Shown: in pieces, positions 1 through 5,454 of the stretch | How positions within the stretch are numbered: the stretch's first letter is position 1 | How the letters are laid out: every line of letters starts with the position of its first letter | Notes under the pieces: generated by a model | What the model was told of the DNA's origin: nothing | The model's input: the letters and a program-made list of their open reading frames with translations, nothing else | Database searches by the model: none | Assembly: GCA_012514775.1 (NCBI GenBank) | Contig: JAAYZQ010000203.1 | Coordinates: 1 to 5,454, forward strand | From: Anaerolineaceae bacterium | GTDB taxonomy: Bacteria > Chloroflexota > Anaerolineae > JAAYZQ01 | Reading direction: 5' to 3' | Length of the DNA: 5,454 nt | Translations under genes and position numbers: made by a program

Positions 1-1557
1 ATCCAGGCCGGCTTTCCCATCGCCTCGCCGCGCGAGTTCGAGGCGGTGCAAAAGGTCAGCGGCGCCGTGCGCGAGAGCGTGGTCTGTGCCCTGGCCCGGG
101 CAAGGGCCGAGGATGTGGACGTGGCCGCCGCCGCCCTCAAGGCCGCCGCCCGGCCCCGCATCCAGGTGGGCCTGGGCGTGTCCGATTCCTACGTCCGCGG
201 CAAGCTGGGGGTCACGCCCGACGAGGCCCTGGAGATGGGCGTGCGGGCTGTGCGCCACGCCCGGCGCTACGTGGACGAGGTGCAGTATTACGCCTCCGAC
301 GCCTGCCGCGCCGAGGCCGAGTACCTCTACCGCGTCCTGGAAGCGGTCATCGACGCCGGGGCGACGGTGATCAATGTCGCCGACGCCATCGGCTTTTACA
401 CGCCTCGCGAGTGGGGCAGCCTGGTGGCCGGCATCCTCGAGAACGTGCCCAACGCCGGCCGGGCGGTCATCTCGATTCACTGCCACGACGACCTGGGCAT
501 GGCCACGGCCAACACGCTGGAGGCCCTGGCCAGCGGCGCCCGCCAGGCCGAGTGCTCGGTCAACGGCATCGGCGAGCGCACGGGCACGGCCTGCCTGGAA
601 GAGATCGTCATGGCCCTCCGCGCCCGCCGCGACGTCCTGGGGCTGGACACCGGCCTGGACACGACCAAGATCTATCCCGCCAGCCGCCTGGTGAGCCACT
701 TTACCGGGTTGCCGGTACAGCCCAACAAGGCCATCGTGGGCGACAAGGCCTTTGCCTACACCTCGGGCATGTACCAGAACGGCGTGCTGCGGGGCCGCAC
801 CGAGGCCGAGTTCCTCGATCCGGCGGCCATCGGCCTGCTCCAGACCCGGGCCGAGGTGCCGCTCCTCACCGGCCGCGAGGGCCTGGGCCGCCGCCTGCGA
901 GAGCTGGGCTTTGCCCTGAGCGAGGCCGAGTTCGACCAGGTCTACAACCGGTTCCGCGACCTGGCCCGCAAGAAGCCCGACCTGGAGGTCCGCGACCTGG
1001 AGGCCATCGTCGGTGGCGAGACGGGCATCTACATCGAGGAGACCTACCAGTTGGAGAACGTACAGGTGACCTGCGGCACCAGCGCCCTGCCCCTGGCGGC
1101 CGTCTGCCTGCAGGGCCGCGAGAGCGAGCCCGTGTGGGCCTCGTGCCACGGCAACGGGCCGGTGGACGCCACCTTCAAGGCCATCGACAGCATCGTCAAG
1201 GTGCCCGTCGAGCTGCTGGAGTATTCGGTGGAGGCCATCACCGAAGGGATCGACGCCCTGGGCAAGGTGGCGGTGCGCATCCAGGGCGACGTGACCCTGG
1301 GCGACACCGGCGCCGTGGAAAGGCGCGTCTTTGTGGGGCGCGGCGCCGACACCGACATCCTGGTCGCCAGCGCCAAGGCCTACCTCTTTGCCCTCAACCG
1401 CCTCCTGGCCGCCCAGCAGGCCAGCCTCCGCCGCCAGGCCGTCGCCGAAGAGGTGCGCCAGGCGCTGGAAGAGATGCGGGCGCGCTACGGCTCGGCGCAC
1501 ACGGGCGACTTTATGGGCTTTAGCGCCATGCGCGACGAAGAGCTGCGAGCCTTCTAG
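1..1557 (+). CDS. leuA: 2-isopropylmalate synthase family protein (LeuA-like), 5' end outside window
   Basis: The reading frame is open from base 1 and ends at TAG 1555-1557. The 518 visible residues lack roughly the first 40-45, including the metal-binding Asp of the DTTLRDGEQ motif. LeuA condenses acetyl-CoA with 2-ketoisovalerate as the first committed step of leucine synthesis. The visible part starts in the TIM barrel (AGFPIASP) and contains the metal-binding His-Cys-His-Asp-Asp (478-492), GIGERTG (565-585) and PNKAIVG. It continues into the C-terminal LeuA regulatory domain with GNGPVDA (1150-1170) and GRGADTDI near 1336-1359, then ends in a charged helical tail. The domain order and the regulatory domain favour LeuA over homocitrate or citramalate synthase. 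Oddly, several residues needed for LeuA catalysis are replaced: Glu to Ser at 295, Pro/Thr to Ala/Ala in the ADAIG motif, the metal-ligand Asn to Thr at 586, and the catalytic His to Tyr at 772. The family call is firm, but the reaction is uncertain. It may have a different specificity or a non-catalytic role. Confidence 0.88.
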   Translation: MQAGFPIASPREFEAVQKVSGAVRESVVCALARARAEDVDVAAAALKAAARPRIQVGLGVSDSYVRGKLGVTPDEALEMGVRAVRHARRYVDEVQYYASDACRAEAEYLYRVLEAVIDAGATVINVADAIGFYTPREWGSLVAGILENVPNAGRAVISIHCHDDLGMATANTLEALASGARQAECSVNGIGERTGTACLEEIVMALRARRDVLGLDTGLDTTKIYPASRLVSHFTGLPVQPNKAIVGDKAFAYTSGMYQNGVLRGRTEAEFLDPAAIGLLQTRAEVPLLTGREGLGRRLRELGFALSEAEFDQVYNRFRDLARKKPDLEVRDLEAIVGGETGIYIEETYQLENVQVTCGTSALPLAAVCLQGRESEPVWASCHGNGPVDATFKAIDSIVKVPVELLEYSVEAITEGIDALGKVAVRIQGDVTLGDTGAVERRVFVGRGADTDILVASAKAYLFALNRLLAAQQASLRRQAVAEEVRQALEEMRARYGSAHTGDFMGFSAMRDEELRAF

Positions 1558-1565
1558 CGATGACA

Positions 1566-1571
1566 GGGGAG
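1566..1571 (+). promoter_or_regulatory. Ribosome binding site of the leader peptide
   Basis: GGGGAG sits nine bases before ATG 1581, a good Shine-Dalgarno match that decides the leader start. An in-frame ATG at 1560, two bases after the leuA stop, would add seven residues (MTGENTA). It has no comparable site upstream, so it would need translational coupling from leuA. Confidence 0.6.
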
Positions 1572-1580
1572 AACACTGCC

Positions 1581-1703
1581 ATGCTTCTGGTCCTGCGCGC
1601 AGCCACAGCCCTCCGCATCGAGGGTATGACCATGACCATGACCACGACTCACACTCCGGCCGTGAGCCGGTGCTTTGTGTTGGGAGGGTCATGGCGGATC
1701 TGA
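1581..1703 (+). CDS. Thr/Met-rich attenuator leader peptide, 40 aa
   Basis: This short ORF begins at ATG 1581 behind a good GGGGAG site and ends at TGA 1701-1703. Residues 16-25 read MTMTMTTTHT, from three ATGACC hexamers (1626-1643) followed by ACG ACT CAC ACT. That gives six Thr and three Met in ten codons; the whole peptide has seven Thr and four Met. I see no domain, signal peptide or membrane segment. The peptide lies 23 bases after leuA and directly before a terminator/antiterminator pair and the aspartate kinase gene. By analogy with ThrL, I infer that it is translated as a sensor: ribosome stalling at scarce Thr (or Met) codons would alter the folding of the RNA downstream. The peptide itself probably has no function. 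The Thr run and the RNA pairings are seen directly; the regulatory role is inferred. Confidence 0.72.
   Translation: MLLVLRAATALRIEGMTMTMTTTHTPAVSRCFVLGGSWRI
1652..1672 (+). promoter_or_regulatory. Possible 1:2 (pause/protector) hairpin of the attenuator
   Basis: CGGC 1657-1660 can pair with GCCG 1666-1669 around the loop CGTGA, and CAC 1652-1654 with GTG 1670-1672 across a two-base bulge. Alternatively, CCGGC 1656-1660 pairs with GCCGG 1666-1670. The 3' side overlaps the antiterminator strand beginning at 1669, so the hairpin would compete with antitermination. It lies immediately after the Thr codons, where a stalled ribosome would melt it. It is a short stem in GC-rich sequence and the least certain part of the attenuator. 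Confidence 0.4.
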
Positions 1704-1741
1704 CGTAGGCCGACGAGGAACCCAACGAGCGCAAAGCCACC
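1669..1741 (+). promoter_or_regulatory. Predicted antiterminator (2:3 pairing)
   Basis: GGTGCTTTGTGTTGGG (1669-1684) can pair with 1721-1741. GGG-CCC and TT-AA join 1680-1684 to 1721-1725. After a four-base bulge (1726-1729), GTG and CTTT (1673-1679) pair with CGCAAAG (1730-1736). After a single bulged C (1737), GGTG 1669-1672 pairs with CACC 1738-1741. This makes 16 base pairs with one G-U. It uses the whole 5' arm and loop of the terminator, so the two structures exclude each other. A ribosome translating past the Thr codons would cover 1669-1684 and allow termination. A ribosome stalled at 1629-1655 would leave this strand free and permit readthrough into the aspartate kinase gene. Confidence 0.65.
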
Positions 1742-1763
1742 GGCTTTGCGCTCGTTTTTATTT
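1724..1763 (+). terminator. Strong intrinsic terminator (attenuator 3:4 hairpin)
   Basis: AACGAGCGCAAAGCC (1724-1738) is perfectly complementary to GGCTTTGCGCTCGTT (1742-1756), giving a 15-bp stem with a three-base loop ACC. A T-rich tail, TTTATTT, runs to 1763, and the T tract begins inside the stem end. There is no A tract on the 5' side, so it acts only on the + strand. It lies 21 bases after the leader stop and 122 bases before the aspartate kinase start. It could simply end the leuA transcript, but the overlapping antiterminator and Thr-rich leader favour a conditional terminator controlling the downstream genes. Confidence 0.9.
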
Positions 1764-1885: not shown

Positions 1886-3289
1886 TTGAGCACATTGACG
1901 ATGAAATTTGGAGGGACATCGGTGGGCAGCGGCGAGGCCTTCCGGCAGGCCGCGGCCATCGTCCGGGAGCAGGCGGCCGCCTGGGACCGGGTCGTGGTGG
2001 TGGTCTCGGCCATGAGCGGCGTGACCGATGCCCTGGTGCGGGGGGCGAGCACGGCCGCCGCCGGCGACGGCGAGACCTATGGCGCCATCGCTGCCGAGCT
2101 GCGCGCCCGCCATCGGGACGTCGTGGGCGCGCTGCCGTCGCTGGACGGCGAGGGCGCCGCCTTGCTGGCCGACGTGGACGGCGTCCTGGACGCCTTTGCC
2201 ACCCTTTGCCGGAGCGTCCACGTCCTGGGCGAGGCGACGCCCCGGGCCATGGACGCCATCAGCTCCCTGGGCGAGCGCCTGAGCGCCGGCATCCTGGCCG
2301 CGCTGCTGCGTCGCCAGGGCTGCCCCAGCCAGGCCGTGGACGCCCGGCAGCTCGTCGTCACCGACGACAAGTTTCAGGGCGCCGTCCCCCTCCTGGACGA
2401 GACGCGCGCCGCCGTGGCCCGGCGGCTGCTGCCCCTCCTGGAGGGCGGGATCGTGCCCGTGGTCACGGGCTTTCTGGGGGCCAACCGCCAGGGGGTGACC
2501 ACCACCCTGGGCCGGGGCGGCAGCGACTGTTCGGCGGCCATCCTGGGCGTCGCCGCGGGCGCCGACGAGGTGTGGATCTGGACCGACGTGAACGGCGTCA
2601 TGAGCGCCGATCCCCGACTGGTGGCCGCGGCGCGGACGGTCCCCTGCCTGTCCTACGCCGAGGTGGGCGAGCTGGCCTACTTTGGGGCCAGGGTGCTCCA
2701 CCCGCGCACGATACGCCCCGTGGTGGAGCGCGGCATTCCCCTGTGGGTCAAGAACACGTTCGACCCGGCCTGCCCGGGCACGCGCATCGTCGCCGGCCCC
2801 GAGTCCACGCCGGGCACCGTCAAGGCCGTCACCGCCATCGAGGGCCTGAGCATGGTCACCGTCGAGGGGCGGGACATGCTGGGCGTGCCCGGCATCGCGG
2901 CCCGCACCTTTGCCGCCGTCTCCGGGCAGGGGGCCAGCGTGCTCATGATCTCCCAGGCGTCGTCTGAGCAGTCCATCTCGTTCGTCGTCCCCGGCGCCGC
3001 CGTGGAGCCCGTGGTGGGCGCCGTGGAGGGCGAGATGGCGCGGGAGCTGGCGCGGCGCGACGTCGACCGCGTCTGGTTGCTGGACGACGTGACCATCGTC
3101 ACCGCCGTGGGGGCCGGCATGCGCGCCACACCCGGCGTGGCCCACCGCATCTTTGGCGCCCTGGCCCGGGCGGGCATCAACGTCGTGGCCATCGCCCAGG
3201 GCTCGGAATGCAGCCTGTCGCTGCTCCTGGCCGCCGCCGACGCCCGCGAGGCCGTGCGGCGCATCCACGAGGAGGTCATCGAGCTATGA
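1886..3289 (+). CDS. lysC: Aspartate kinase, monofunctional, ThrA-type ACT domains
   Basis: Phosphorylates aspartate with ATP to 4-phosphoaspartate, the entry step to threonine, methionine, lysine and isoleucine; cytoplasmic. From TTG 1886 the product is 467 aa and begins MSTLTMKFGGTSVG. The kinase domain (about 1-300) carries KFGGTS (7-12, ATP-binding Lys7), SSLGERLSA, TTTLGRGGSD (205-214), WTDVNGVMSADPR (from 232) and FGARVLHP. Two ACT domains follow, at about 315-385 and 402-467. They closely follow the Thr-inhibited AK-homoserine dehydrogenase pattern: ISQASSEQSISF holds Gln357 and VVAIAQGSE holds Gln438, matching the two Thr-binding glutamines of plant and ThrA enzymes. There is no fused homoserine dehydrogenase, because the stop comes directly after ACT2. 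Feedback inhibition by threonine is therefore inferred. Expression is probably set by the upstream attenuator. The stop overlaps the next start as ATGA. An ATG start at 1901 is possible but would leave only MKFGG at the N terminus. Confidence 0.96.
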   Translation: MSTLTMKFGGTSVGSGEAFRQAAAIVREQAAAWDRVVVVVSAMSGVTDALVRGASTAAAGDGETYGAIAAELRARHRDVVGALPSLDGEGAALLADVDGVLDAFATLCRSVHVLGEATPRAMDAISSLGERLSAGILAALLRRQGCPSQAVDARQLVVTDDKFQGAVPLLDETRAAVARRLLPLLEGGIVPVVTGFLGANRQGVTTTLGRGGSDCSAAILGVAAGADEVWIWTDVNGVMSADPRLVAAARTVPCLSYAEVGELAYFGARVLHPRTIRPVVERGIPLWVKNTFDPACPGTRIVAGPESTPGTVKAVTAIEGLSMVTVEGRDMLGVPGIAARTFAAVSGQGASVLMISQASSEQSISFVVPGAAVEPVVGAVEGEMARELARRDVDRVWLLDDVTIVTAVGAGMRATPGVAHRIFGALARAGINVVAIAQGSECSLSLLLAAADAREAVRRIHEEVIEL

Positions 3290-4332
3290 ACCGCATCCCT
3301 GTCGGAGTGCTCGGCGCGACGGGCGCCGTCGGGCAGCGTTTTGTCCAGCTCCTGGCGGGCCATCCCTGGTTCGAGCTGACCGCCGTGGCGGGCTCGGAGC
3401 GCAGCGCCGGCCGGCGCTACGGCGAGGCGTGCCGGTGGGTCATCGGCGGCGACCCGCCCCCCGAGGTGGCCGCCCTGACCGTCCGGCCCCTGGAGCCGGG
3501 GTTGCCGGCGCGGCTGGTCTTTTCGGCGCTGCCCGGCGGCGTCGCCCGCGACGTGGAAGAGTCCTTTGCCCGGGCGGGCTATGCCGTCTGCTCCAACGCC
3601 GCCGCCTGCCGCCAGGACCCCTCCATCCCGCTCCTGTGCCCCGAGGTCAACGCCGGGCACCTGGCCCTCGTCCGGCGGCAGAAGGCCGAGCGGGGCTGGT
3701 CGGGGTTCATCGTCACCAGCCCCAACTGCACGACCACGGGCATCGTCCTGCCCCTCAAGCCCCTGGACGAGGCCTTTGGCCTGGAAAGGGTCCAGGCCGT
3801 GTCCATGCAGGCCACCTCGGGCGCGGGCTATCCCGGCGTGGCCAGCCTCGACATCCTGGGCAACGTCGTGCCCTACATCGACGGCGAAGAGTGCAAAATA
3901 GAGCAAGAGACCGTCCTGCTCCTGGGACGGCTGGTGGACGGCCGGCGAGAGCCGGCGGCGGTGGCCGTCAGCGCCCAGGCCAACCGCGTGCCGGTCCTCG
4001 ACGGCCACACCACCTGCCTCTCCCTGGGCTTTCGCCGGCCGCCGGCCGTGGAAGAGGCGGTCGCCGCCCTGGAGGGCTTTCGCGGGCCCGAGGTCGTCCG
4101 CGGCCTGCCCAGCGCCCCGGAGCGGCCCGTGGTGGTGCGCCGCGAGCCCGACCGGCCCCAGCCCCAGCGTGACCGGGACGCCGGCGGCGGCATGGCGGTG
4201 AGCGTCGGGCGGGTGCGCCCCTGCCCGCTGCTGGACCTGCGCCTGGTGAGCGTGTCACACAACACGCTGCGCGGGGCTGCCGGCGGCGCGGTGTTGAATG
4301 CAGAACTTCTGGTGGCGGAGGGATTGGTATGA
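3286..4332 (+). CDS. asd: Aspartate-semialdehyde dehydrogenase, archaeal/fungal type
   Basis: Reduces 4-phosphoaspartate with NADPH to aspartate 4-semialdehyde, the branch compound for lysine and for homoserine-derived amino acids. The product is 348 aa, starting at ATG 3286, which overlaps the kinase stop by four bases; AGGAGG (3270-3275) precedes it by ten bases. The N-terminal Rossmann motif is GVLGATGAVGQRF (residues 7-19). The catalytic Cys148 lies in SPNCTTTG and the acid/base His241 in RVPVLDGHT. Other family signatures are SGAGYPGVASLDILGNVVPYI and HNTLRGAAGGAVLNAELL near the C terminus. The SGAGYPGVxSLDI stretch and the absence of the longer enterobacterial insertions place it in the archaeal/fungal-like class of ASADH, which also occurs in various bacteria. 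All catalytic residues are present. It directly uses the product of the preceding gene. Confidence 0.96.
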   Translation: MNRIPVGVLGATGAVGQRFVQLLAGHPWFELTAVAGSERSAGRRYGEACRWVIGGDPPPEVAALTVRPLEPGLPARLVFSALPGGVARDVEESFARAGYAVCSNAAACRQDPSIPLLCPEVNAGHLALVRRQKAERGWSGFIVTSPNCTTTGIVLPLKPLDEAFGLERVQAVSMQATSGAGYPGVASLDILGNVVPYIDGEECKIEQETVLLLGRLVDGRREPAAVAVSAQANRVPVLDGHTTCLSLGFRRPPAVEEAVAALEGFRGPEVVRGLPSAPERPVVVRREPDRPQPQRDRDAGGGMAVSVGRVRPCPLLDLRLVSVSHNTLRGAAGGAVLNAELLVAEGLV

Positions 4333-5454
4333 AGCACAGTGGATGCACGTCGGTGCACGAGTTCGTGGGCGATTTCATCGTCTATCGCAACCTGGAGGCC
4401 GTGGACGAGCGGCTGCCGCGCCTGGCGGAGGCGCGGCGGGTGCTGGGCGACGGGCAGGGGCCGGTGCCGCGCAAGAGCGAGGCAAGCTATGCCCGGGTGG
4501 TGGCCCATCTGCTGCGGGCCGCCCGCGCCCTGGATGCCCCGGGGGTCGCCCTGCGGCGCCTGATCTTTGTGGGCGACACGCGCCTCAACGACGGGACGGC
4601 CTTTGCCAACCTGTGCGACGTGGGCGGCTGGCCCGGCGCGGCCTTTATCGGCGCCGAGGATGCGGAGCCGGAGCGGGTCGAGTTGGTGGAGCAGGGCCCC
4701 ACGGCCCTCTACCTGGCCAACCGCTGGGCGGCCCTGGCCGGGTTCGAGGGCTTTTGCCACGAGCGGGGGCTGCCCGTCGACGAGGGCACGGCCGTGGTGC
4801 TGGACCTGGACAAGACGACGGTGGGCGCCCGGGGACGCAACGACCGGGCCATCGACCGCGCCCGGGTAGAGGCGGTGCGCGAGACGGTGGCCGGGCTCCT
4901 GGGAGGCGAGTACGACGGCAGCGCCTTCCAGGCGGCCTATGACCTCCTCAACCGGCCCGAGTTCCACCCCTTTACAGCCGACAACCAGGACTACCTGGCC
5001 TACATCTGCCTGGTCCTGGGCAGCGGGCTGATGGGCCTGGACCGCCTGGTGGCCCAGGTGCGCGCCGGCCGGCTGGCCTCCTTCGCGCAGTTTATCGCCG
5101 CCGTCGACGGGCAGGCGGGCTACCTGCCCCGCGGGCTGCGCGAGGTCCACGGCGAGGTGTTGGGCCGGGTGCAGGCCGGCGACCCGACGCCGTTCAAGGC
5201 CTTTCGGGCCAACGAGTATCGCGCCACGGCGGCGCGCTTTGGCTTTCTGTCCGACGACTGGCCCCTGGAGCACATGGTGGGCGAAGAGATCCTGGTCACC
5301 CAGGAGGTGCGCGAGGCGGCCCTGCGCTGGCGGTCGCAGGGCGCGCTGATCTTTGCCCTCTCCGACAAGCCCGACGAGGCCTCGTTCCCGCCCGCCGACC
5401 TGGCGGCCCGGGGCGGCCGGGCCATCCACCGCATGGAGACCCACGCCGGCGGGC
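4329..5454 (+). CDS. HAD-like hydrolase-family protein, 3' end outside window
   Basis: The frame is open from ATG 4329 to the window edge (375 codons, no stop). The ATG overlaps the asd stop as ATGA, and GGAGG (4317-4321) precedes it by seven bases, so translation is coupled to asd. I do not recognise the exact family. Residues 155-163 (AVVLDLDKT) look like HAD motif I, with candidate nucleophile Asp159 and Asp161. ALIFALSDKP (about 339-348) ends in Ser345, a plausible motif II. Motifs III and IV of this unit would lie beyond the window. Earlier, LIFVGDTRLNDGTAF holds GDTRLND at 82-88, which looks like HAD motif IV although it precedes motif I. This suggests two HAD-related units or a rearranged fold. 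The middle (about 190-330) is helical with no named motif. No signal peptide or membrane span is visible. A phosphatase in the aspartate pathway is possible from context but unproven. Confidence 0.7.
   Translation, partial: MKHSGCTSVHEFVGDFIVYRNLEAVDERLPRLAEARRVLGDGQGPVPRKSEASYARVVAHLLRAARALDAPGVALRRLIFVGDTRLNDGTAFANLCDVGGWPGAAFIGAEDAEPERVELVEQGPTALYLANRWAALAGFEGFCHERGLPVDEGTAVVLDLDKTTVGARGRNDRAIDRARVEAVRETVAGLLGGEYDGSAFQAAYDLLNRPEFHPFTADNQDYLAYICLVLGSGLMGLDRLVAQVRAGRLASFAQFIAAVDGQAGYLPRGLREVHGEVLGRVQAGDPTPFKAFRANEYRATAARFGFLSDDWPLEHMVGEEILVTQEVREAALRWRSQGALIFALSDKPDEASFPPADLAARGGRAIHRMETHAGG

Follow-up and report, generated by a model that had tools for sequence, protein, structure and literature searches.

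What does the 328 nt gap between leuA and lysC contain in an Anaerolineaceae genome in which lysC is followed directly by asd? In the 5,454-nucleotide stretch of DNA analysed here (the window), the gap very probably holds a ribosome-mediated transcription attenuator of the classical kind, with charged tRNA-Thr and probably also tRNA-Met as its signals and with lysC-asd under its control. An earlier sequence-only reading had placed a leader ORF, a run of regulatory codons, a terminator and an antiterminator at 1560-1763, and all are confirmed there, the antiterminator with a slightly different extent; the parts are present, they are conserved and co-vary in relatives, and a switch point emerges from computation.

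Elements of the leuA-lysC gap

The elements are listed in Table 1. Re-reading the sequence upheld the SD-led ORF of 40 codons with a dense run at 1626-1655 (ATG ACC ATG ACC ATG ACC ACG ACT CAC ACT, encoding Met-Thr-Met-Thr-Met-Thr-Thr-Thr-His-Thr), so that the window has the short, cognate-codon-rich leader ORF by which an attenuator is recognized; the ORF is presumably translated. NCBIfam leader-peptide models, run against four of the leaders, gave no family for any of them. The attenuator's second hallmark, an intrinsic terminator behind the leader ORF and ahead of the structural gene, was likewise found again where it had been reported: three terminator-like sites occur in 1300-1900 against 0.4 expected, with 15 pairs in that at 1724-1756 and five in each of the other two.

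Table 1. Features of the window and their coordinates.
Feature	Position	Strand	Remarks
leuA, 2-isopropylmalate synthase, 3' part	1..1557	+	NCBIfam NF002086 above cut-off; 5' end outside window
Shine-Dalgarno AGGGGAG of leader ORF	1565..1571	+	anti-SD duplex -8.3 kcal/mol; 9 nt before ATG
Leader peptide ORF, 40 aa, MLLVLRAATALRIEGMTMTMTTTHTPAVSRCFVLGGSWRI	1581..1703	+	ATG 1581, TGA 1701-1703; homologous leader in L102
Regulatory codon run, 3 Met + 6 Thr + 1 His	1626..1655	+	
Region 1 strand, inside run	1630..1637	+	pairs with 1687-1694, sequesters antiterminator strand; MFE fold
Region 2, antiterminator 5' strand	1668..1690	+	core 1668-1681; in distal leader ORF
Region 1 partner	1687..1694	+	pairs with 1630-1637; MFE fold
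Region 3, antiterminator 3' strand	1718..1742	+	overlaps terminator 5' arm
Intrinsic terminator	1724..1763	+	15-bp stem 1724-1756, loop 3, T tail 1757-1763 (TTTATTT)
lysC, aspartate kinase	1886..3289	+	AA_kinase + ACT domains; TTG start
asd, aspartate-semialdehyde dehydrogenase	3286..4332	+	TIGR00978 type

The antiterminator is present and competes with the terminator, as had been proposed, and its extent needs slight revision: instead of 16 bp between 1669-1684 and 1721-1741 we find a core of 14 bp between 1668-1681 and 1728-1742 with one bulged base (duplexfold, coordinates mapped by hand), with outer pairs at 1683:1726 and 1686-1690:1718-1723. Compared with shuffled sequences this duplex has z -2.5 (p 0.018). 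A third stem, absent from the earlier reading, joins CCATGACC (1630-1637) to GGTCATGG (1687-1694) and, when the full-length segment is folded, closes around the antiterminator strand. The segment 1560-1763 as a whole folds at -86.4 kcal/mol (z -3.5), and none of 200 shuffles folds as well.

The TTG start of lysC is supported by an ATG at the same place in L001, the sister of the window on the LysC tree. A consensus scan of 1300-1900 yielded no promoter-like site, and the leader ORF begins 23 nt past the leuA stop, which together argue that the attenuator probably lies inside a leuA-lysC-asd operon. On the simplest reading the element would lack a promoter of its own and act within a leuA-lysC-asd transcript, lysC-asd being co-transcribed with leuA.

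Two further features of the window are recorded here. Between the terminator and lysC, GGTAGGGGCAACCCTCGCGGTTGCCC occurs in two exact, partly palindromic copies at 1770-1795 and 1815-1840, resembling a dispersed REP-type repeat. Behind asd, the ORF at 4329-5453 has no Pfam or NCBIfam match; its homologues in L033, L041, L054, L059, L063, L068, L071 and L075 all lie 3' of asd, so that it may represent an unknown family linked to asd.

The leader among lysC relatives

A LysC scan of genome contigs matched 271 stretches, 183 of which were confirmed, and the best 80 were kept as loci. By their titles ten of these come from other phyla (Acidobacteria, Caldisericota, Acetothermia), and the remainder, L007 aside, are Chloroflexota or close to them (L060 is titled Sphaerobacter). 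A Thr-rich ORF precedes a terminator in 16 of the 79 loci with a usable lysC start, L075, which lacks one, being left out. A second set was drawn from the class to which G005 belongs (G005 being the Anaerolineales genome that contains L006): of 298 genomes, 233 have LysC. This set supplied 30 loci and the upstream regions of another 100 rows, with G267, G071, G176 and the rows after G269 left out. Scanned from stop to stop, the 210 lysC upstream regions (205 distinct) gave 40 with a Thr-rich leader and a terminator, and five were dropped: L115 and L116 duplicate L002 and L006, L003 and L113 are one locus whose Thr run is a coding artefact inside a 420-codon ORF, and L223 is a T-box locus. The 35 distinct members that are left include the window, and in every one the terminator lies 19-39 nt past the leader stop, a condition of selection. 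L069, with only three Thr in eight codons, stands outside the 35 and is counted in the 17-member set used for duplex shuffles and in the census given below.

Such leaders occur more often than expected by chance. The same scan run for seven control residues with four-codon boxes (Ala, Pro, Gly, Val, Ser, Leu and Arg) returned between 0 and 5 of the 210 regions. Requiring at least five Thr in eight codons and a terminator 8-60 nt past the stop, 28 of the 210 regions (26 distinct) qualify, against none for any of the seven control residues. Terminators swapped in at random from elsewhere still leave a mean of 7.8 Thr runs and a maximum of 15. On both strands of L001-L129, which were mostly fetched by lysC and sample other genes only nearby, 19 of 20 matches with at least five Thr and a terminator lie just upstream of lysC (17 of 18 without two duplicate loci). 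At 19 hom loci, scanned on the stored strand, there are three weak Thr-rich ORFs (L086, L090, L093), and five Thr with a terminator occur on neither strand of the hom loci. The 30 thrC loci gave three matches, of which L239 is the same leader as the lysC copy of L042; L233 and L236 were judged from their peptides to be chance.

The sequence-only reading had looked to relatives for conserved Thr/Met codons and compensatory changes in both stems, and for the converse, terminators that outlive their Thr codons. The first expectation is borne out: codons, terminator and antiterminator are kept in relatives and the stems co-vary. L102, whose LysC is 73% identical, aligns well with the window and has the same anatomy, with paired changes in the terminator (two) and in the antiterminator, by eye on the alignment. 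The second may have a few true instances. Some other terminator stands in 32 of the 205 distinct regions; among these, the Thr/Met runs of L194 and L199 are weaker, the terminator of L194 recurs in L181, and many of the rest resemble, by eye, those of riboswitches or T-boxes. The setting in Chloroflexota that had been suspected for the leader is also borne out, by the LysC relatives and by the tree. The leuA-lysC adjacency did not prove general: it is seen in the window only, with no leuA match in the 80 loci within a fetched flank of at most 4 kb.

Relatives differ in how the leader is likely to be transcribed and translated. Under a TTGACA/TANNNT-type promoter rule, with the distance of the -10 box counted to the in-frame leader start codon, 27 of the 34 relatives have a promoter near the leader start. 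In 16 of the 35 members, the window not being of this class, the -10 box lies 5-11 nt before an in-frame start (mean 0.5, maximum 3 in a shuffled control), so that a leaderless leader mRNA is predicted for these 16; L165 is a doubtful case, with a poor -35 box and a TTG start far from the run. Thus the strong SD that was described stands for the window, and 16 of the 34 relatives are apparently leaderless. A promoter lies 12-45 nt before the leader start in 11 of the 35, and the same rule finds none in eight, the window among them. Weaker promoter candidates are those of L006, L015 and L074, and L102 has both a promoter of its own and an SD. Apparent leaderless leader mRNAs, together with the intra-operon copy of the window, are testable twists on the attenuator.

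Co-variation was measured on 30 non-redundant members, with the run of the window cut to its best eight codons (ending at 1649, not 1655) here and in the residue counts and family masking below. The duplex of region 2 with its own terminator arm averages -21.2 kcal/mol, compared with -16.2 kcal/mol when the arm is taken from another species (double-centred z -7.5, p 0.0002, for relatives that are not independent, with no tree correction), and regions 1 and 2 also co-vary between species (z -5.4). The control pair of region 1 with the terminator arm gives a species-specific signal too (z -2.6), and part of the co-variation may therefore be composition or kinship. An antiterminator that excludes the terminator is thus kept by co-variation, as expected of an attenuator and with that control in view. 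Shuffles of single sequences reach p <0.05 for the antiterminator in six of 17 members (the window, L015, L022, L028, L066 and L069), and the duplex z is above zero in seven of 17 (first set).

Other RNA sensors before lysC

On the LysC tree (78 rows) the sister of the window is L001 (100/99), which has a T-box instead of the leader (86 bits, under the gathering score of 93; E 2e-19). The 17 leader-type genes then known, window included, fall within one supported clade of 33 rows (100/97). A T-box motif stands just before lysC in 12 of the first 79 loci; Rfam matches ten of these, three above the gathering score, and a scan at gathering only gave no match for L026 and L047. At the usual place of the specifier stands ACC (Thr) in all seven of the alignments that were read. 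SAM riboswitches precede lysC in L025, L041, L058, L059, L062 and L064; by title, four of these six loci belong to Caldilineales, Caldilineaceae or Litorilinea. Upstream of lysC the window itself has neither a T-box (RF00230 match or GGTGGNACC-type motif), nor is it matched by the SAM riboswitch model RF00162.

A census of the 205 distinct regions counts 36 of the leader type (L069 included), at least 19 with a T-box motif, at least six with a SAM riboswitch, 32 with another terminator, 110 with none and two too short. The T-box and SAM counts are lower bounds because Rfam covered only part of the regions (the window, 51 of the first 80 loci, 20 of L100-L129 and none of L130-L229). More than half of the regions are without a known element, and the attenuator is therefore one solution among several in the class.

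Further features were noted near lysC and asd. At ten of the 12 motif loci the T-box-type lysC leader is preceded by a gene for tRNA-Val (GAC) (L026, L031, L034, L046, L047, L050, L052, L056, L065 and L072), with none found in L001 (ARAGORN) or in L027 (Rfam). SAM riboswitches occur just 3' of asd at L066:6551-6674 and L069:6589-6709, in genomes that both have a Thr/Met leader before lysC. Three close LysC relatives, L104, L107 and L112, share a conserved GC-rich leader about 120-210 nt before lysC, with GCGACGCCGGCGTCGCGG at -165 to -145 and then GCCGGCTGGCCCC; it has no terminator and no Rfam match at gathering, and is a candidate for an unknown regulatory RNA.

Ribosome position and the sensed amino acids

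To follow the proposed switch, the RNA was folded up to the terminator loop with the ribosome footprint, assumed to extend 17 nt to the 5' side and 13 nt to the 3' side of the A-site codon, masked at each codon in turn. With the ribosome at any of the codons 1626-1653 the antiterminator pairs at 0.71-0.75, and this falls to 0.68 at 1656 and 0.34 at 1659; between 1662 and the stop it is 0.00-0.07. Clearly permissive positions thus continue for one codon past the last Thr codon (1653), and the permissive stretch takes in both the Thr and the Met codons. The earlier proposal that a ribosome stalled on Thr frees the antiterminator, and that one reading on to TGA 1701 covers it, is thereby reproduced by computation (0.75 on the last Thr codon against at most 0.07 from 1662), and ribosome position decides the structure in the window, as computed. 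Codons 8-11, before the run, are as permissive as the run (0.74-0.75; codon 13 gives 0.36), and hence the sensed amino acid is set by codon content and not by position alone. Among the 35 members the mean antiterminator pairing is 0.55 at Thr codons and 0.05 at the stop, with the former above the latter in all 35. A strict rule (run >=0.4, stop <0.1) selects 21 of the 35, and mean pairing at Thr codons is below 0.35 in eight (L005, L006, L030, L042, L074, L131, L175 and L211).

Equilibrium folding favours the finished terminator at every ribosome position (0.70-0.92), and the switch must therefore be kinetic, presumably a competition between antiterminator and terminator as the RNA is made. 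When Thr (or Met) is plentiful, a ribosome would pass the run and cover region 2 as it moves on to TGA 1701, so that the terminator would form. A ribosome stalled on the run would leave region 2 free to pair with the terminator 5' arm while the 3' arm has yet to be transcribed, and with the antiterminator formed RNA polymerase would continue into lysC-asd. In the window the element would most likely act on transcripts out of leuA. A response of transcription to Thr is the likely prediction, and one to Met is plausible.

The pairing of Thr with Met, with Ile absent from the run, which had been noticed in the window, is supported as a family trait. Counted from the first to the last Thr of the best eight codons, the runs of the 35 leaders hold 171 Thr, 52 Met and one Ile among 253 residues, with Met inside the run in 28 leaders and Ile in one. 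It remains nearly an even chance that the Thr codons alone are the sensor and that the Met codons are by-products of region 1 pairing or spare starts, since the ATGACC repeats form the 1630-1637:1687-1694 stem, seven of the 35 leaders have no Met in the run and the T-boxes read on orthologues are of the Thr type. Against this, Met makes up 52 of the 82 non-Thr run residues (63%), compared with about 10% elsewhere in the peptides, in leaders whose stems differ, and the SAM riboswitches at six lysC loci indicate that the methionine branch is read elsewhere. An attenuator with two inputs, the charging of tRNA-Thr and of tRNA-Met, which in Chloroflexota swaps with Thr T-boxes and SAM riboswitches on the same gene and in the window tunes only the distal half of a leu-asp operon, we advance tentatively, as somewhat under an even chance; were it true, the shared aspartate-kinase step would answer to both branch end products.

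Two alternatives set attenuation itself aside. One is that 1724-1763 is the ordinary end-of-operon terminator of leuA, that lysC-asd is served by a promoter of its own at 1764-1885, and that the leader ORF is fortuitous. The terminator does sit between genes of different pathways; however, the stretch 1300-1900 is the one in which no promoter-like site was seen, leader and terminator accompany lysC and not leuA in relatives, and antiterminator and terminator arm co-vary, and we consider this account highly improbable. That the leader ORF acts through translation or Rho-dependent polarity, and not through intrinsic termination, could draw on an untranslated default that is not clear-cut (antiterminator 0.69 in the truncated window RNA without a ribosome), but deserves scarcely any credence beside the terminator that follows the leader stop so closely in all 35 members, by selection, and the 122 nt that separate T tail from lysC in the window.

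Known attenuators and other leaders

In E. coli, the thrL leader is rich in Thr, with Thr/Ile codons, and its overlapping antiterminator and terminator govern aspartate-pathway genes. The ribosome-mediated attenuator of the window shares with it the Thr-rich leader peptide, the overlapping structures and the pathway controlled, and differs in that its codons are Thr/Met, in that separate lysC and TIGR00978-type asd genes are controlled and not thrABC, and in the apparently leaderless state of many relatives. The Rfam model of that leader (RF00506, Thr_leader) covers 1609-1760 with a score of 14.8 bits (E 2.8), where gathering requires 55; no Rfam family matches the element at gathering, and only chance-level matches appear at E up to 10. 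The Thr T-boxes on Chloroflexota lysC (L001, L046, L052 and others) act on the same gene, with uncharged tRNA-Thr as the signal and a transcriptional terminator; unlike the element of the window, they have no leader peptide, and the RNA reads the tRNA directly.

Leader-peptide attenuators of Actinobacteria and Firmicutes are likewise cases of attenuation outside Proteobacteria in the portions of PMC1262725, PMC2965389 and PMC9413887 that we draw on. In excerpts, PMC2965389 gives leader peptides as confined until then to Proteobacteria and Actinobacteria, ermC aside, before its own Firmicutes cases, and has T-box and leader peptide able to exchange; those of PMC1262725 describe threonine and methionine operons of Actinobacteria without a conserved upstream RNA element. 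Chloroflexi are absent from the main text of PMC1262725 and PMC2965389, appear only in a reference of PMC9413887 and are named in passages of PMC4833913 only as a group with few genomes. Passages of PMC3766115 suggest an origin of amino-acid attenuator motifs in gammaproteobacteria and place Chloroflexi among T-box users, and passages of PMC2494555 list Chloroflexi T-boxes for Ile and Trp only. Among the matches listed from excerpts of the open-access literature there is no report of a leader peptide or attenuation in Chloroflexi, Chloroflexota or Anaerolineae. The type of attenuation is thus old, and the phylum, the Thr/Met pairing and the exchange of sensors on lysC look new: leader-peptide attenuation of amino-acid genes apparently extends to Chloroflexota, and since lysC stands under a leader peptide, a Thr T-box or a SAM riboswitch, three RNA sensors unrelated to one another, their exchange can be traced on one tree.

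Other amino-acid genes of the same genomes were also inspected. At the trpE loci L260-L272 a T-box motif GGGTGGCACC occurs in ten of 13 (L271 and L272 probably share one site) and a Trp leader with a terminator in none of the 13, and the genomes therefore seem to mix sensor types. A branched-chain leader with a terminator was found at one of 13 ilvB loci, L278; at L273:120-270 a terminator comes after a short ORF MRNHSIISIILVVLVLVGLISGGI, with over 1 kb still to go to ilvB. The leader ORF before ilvB at L278:1290-1450, in the genome of L001, reads ...ALSLLIIVIIILLLSGSGWRLRWHG with a window of ten Leu/Ile/Val in ten codons, and GGTTGGCGGCTGC behind it can pair, by eye, with an arm of the terminator GCAGCCGCC..GGCGGCTTTTTT, so that it is likely to be a branched-chain attenuator in the same phylum.
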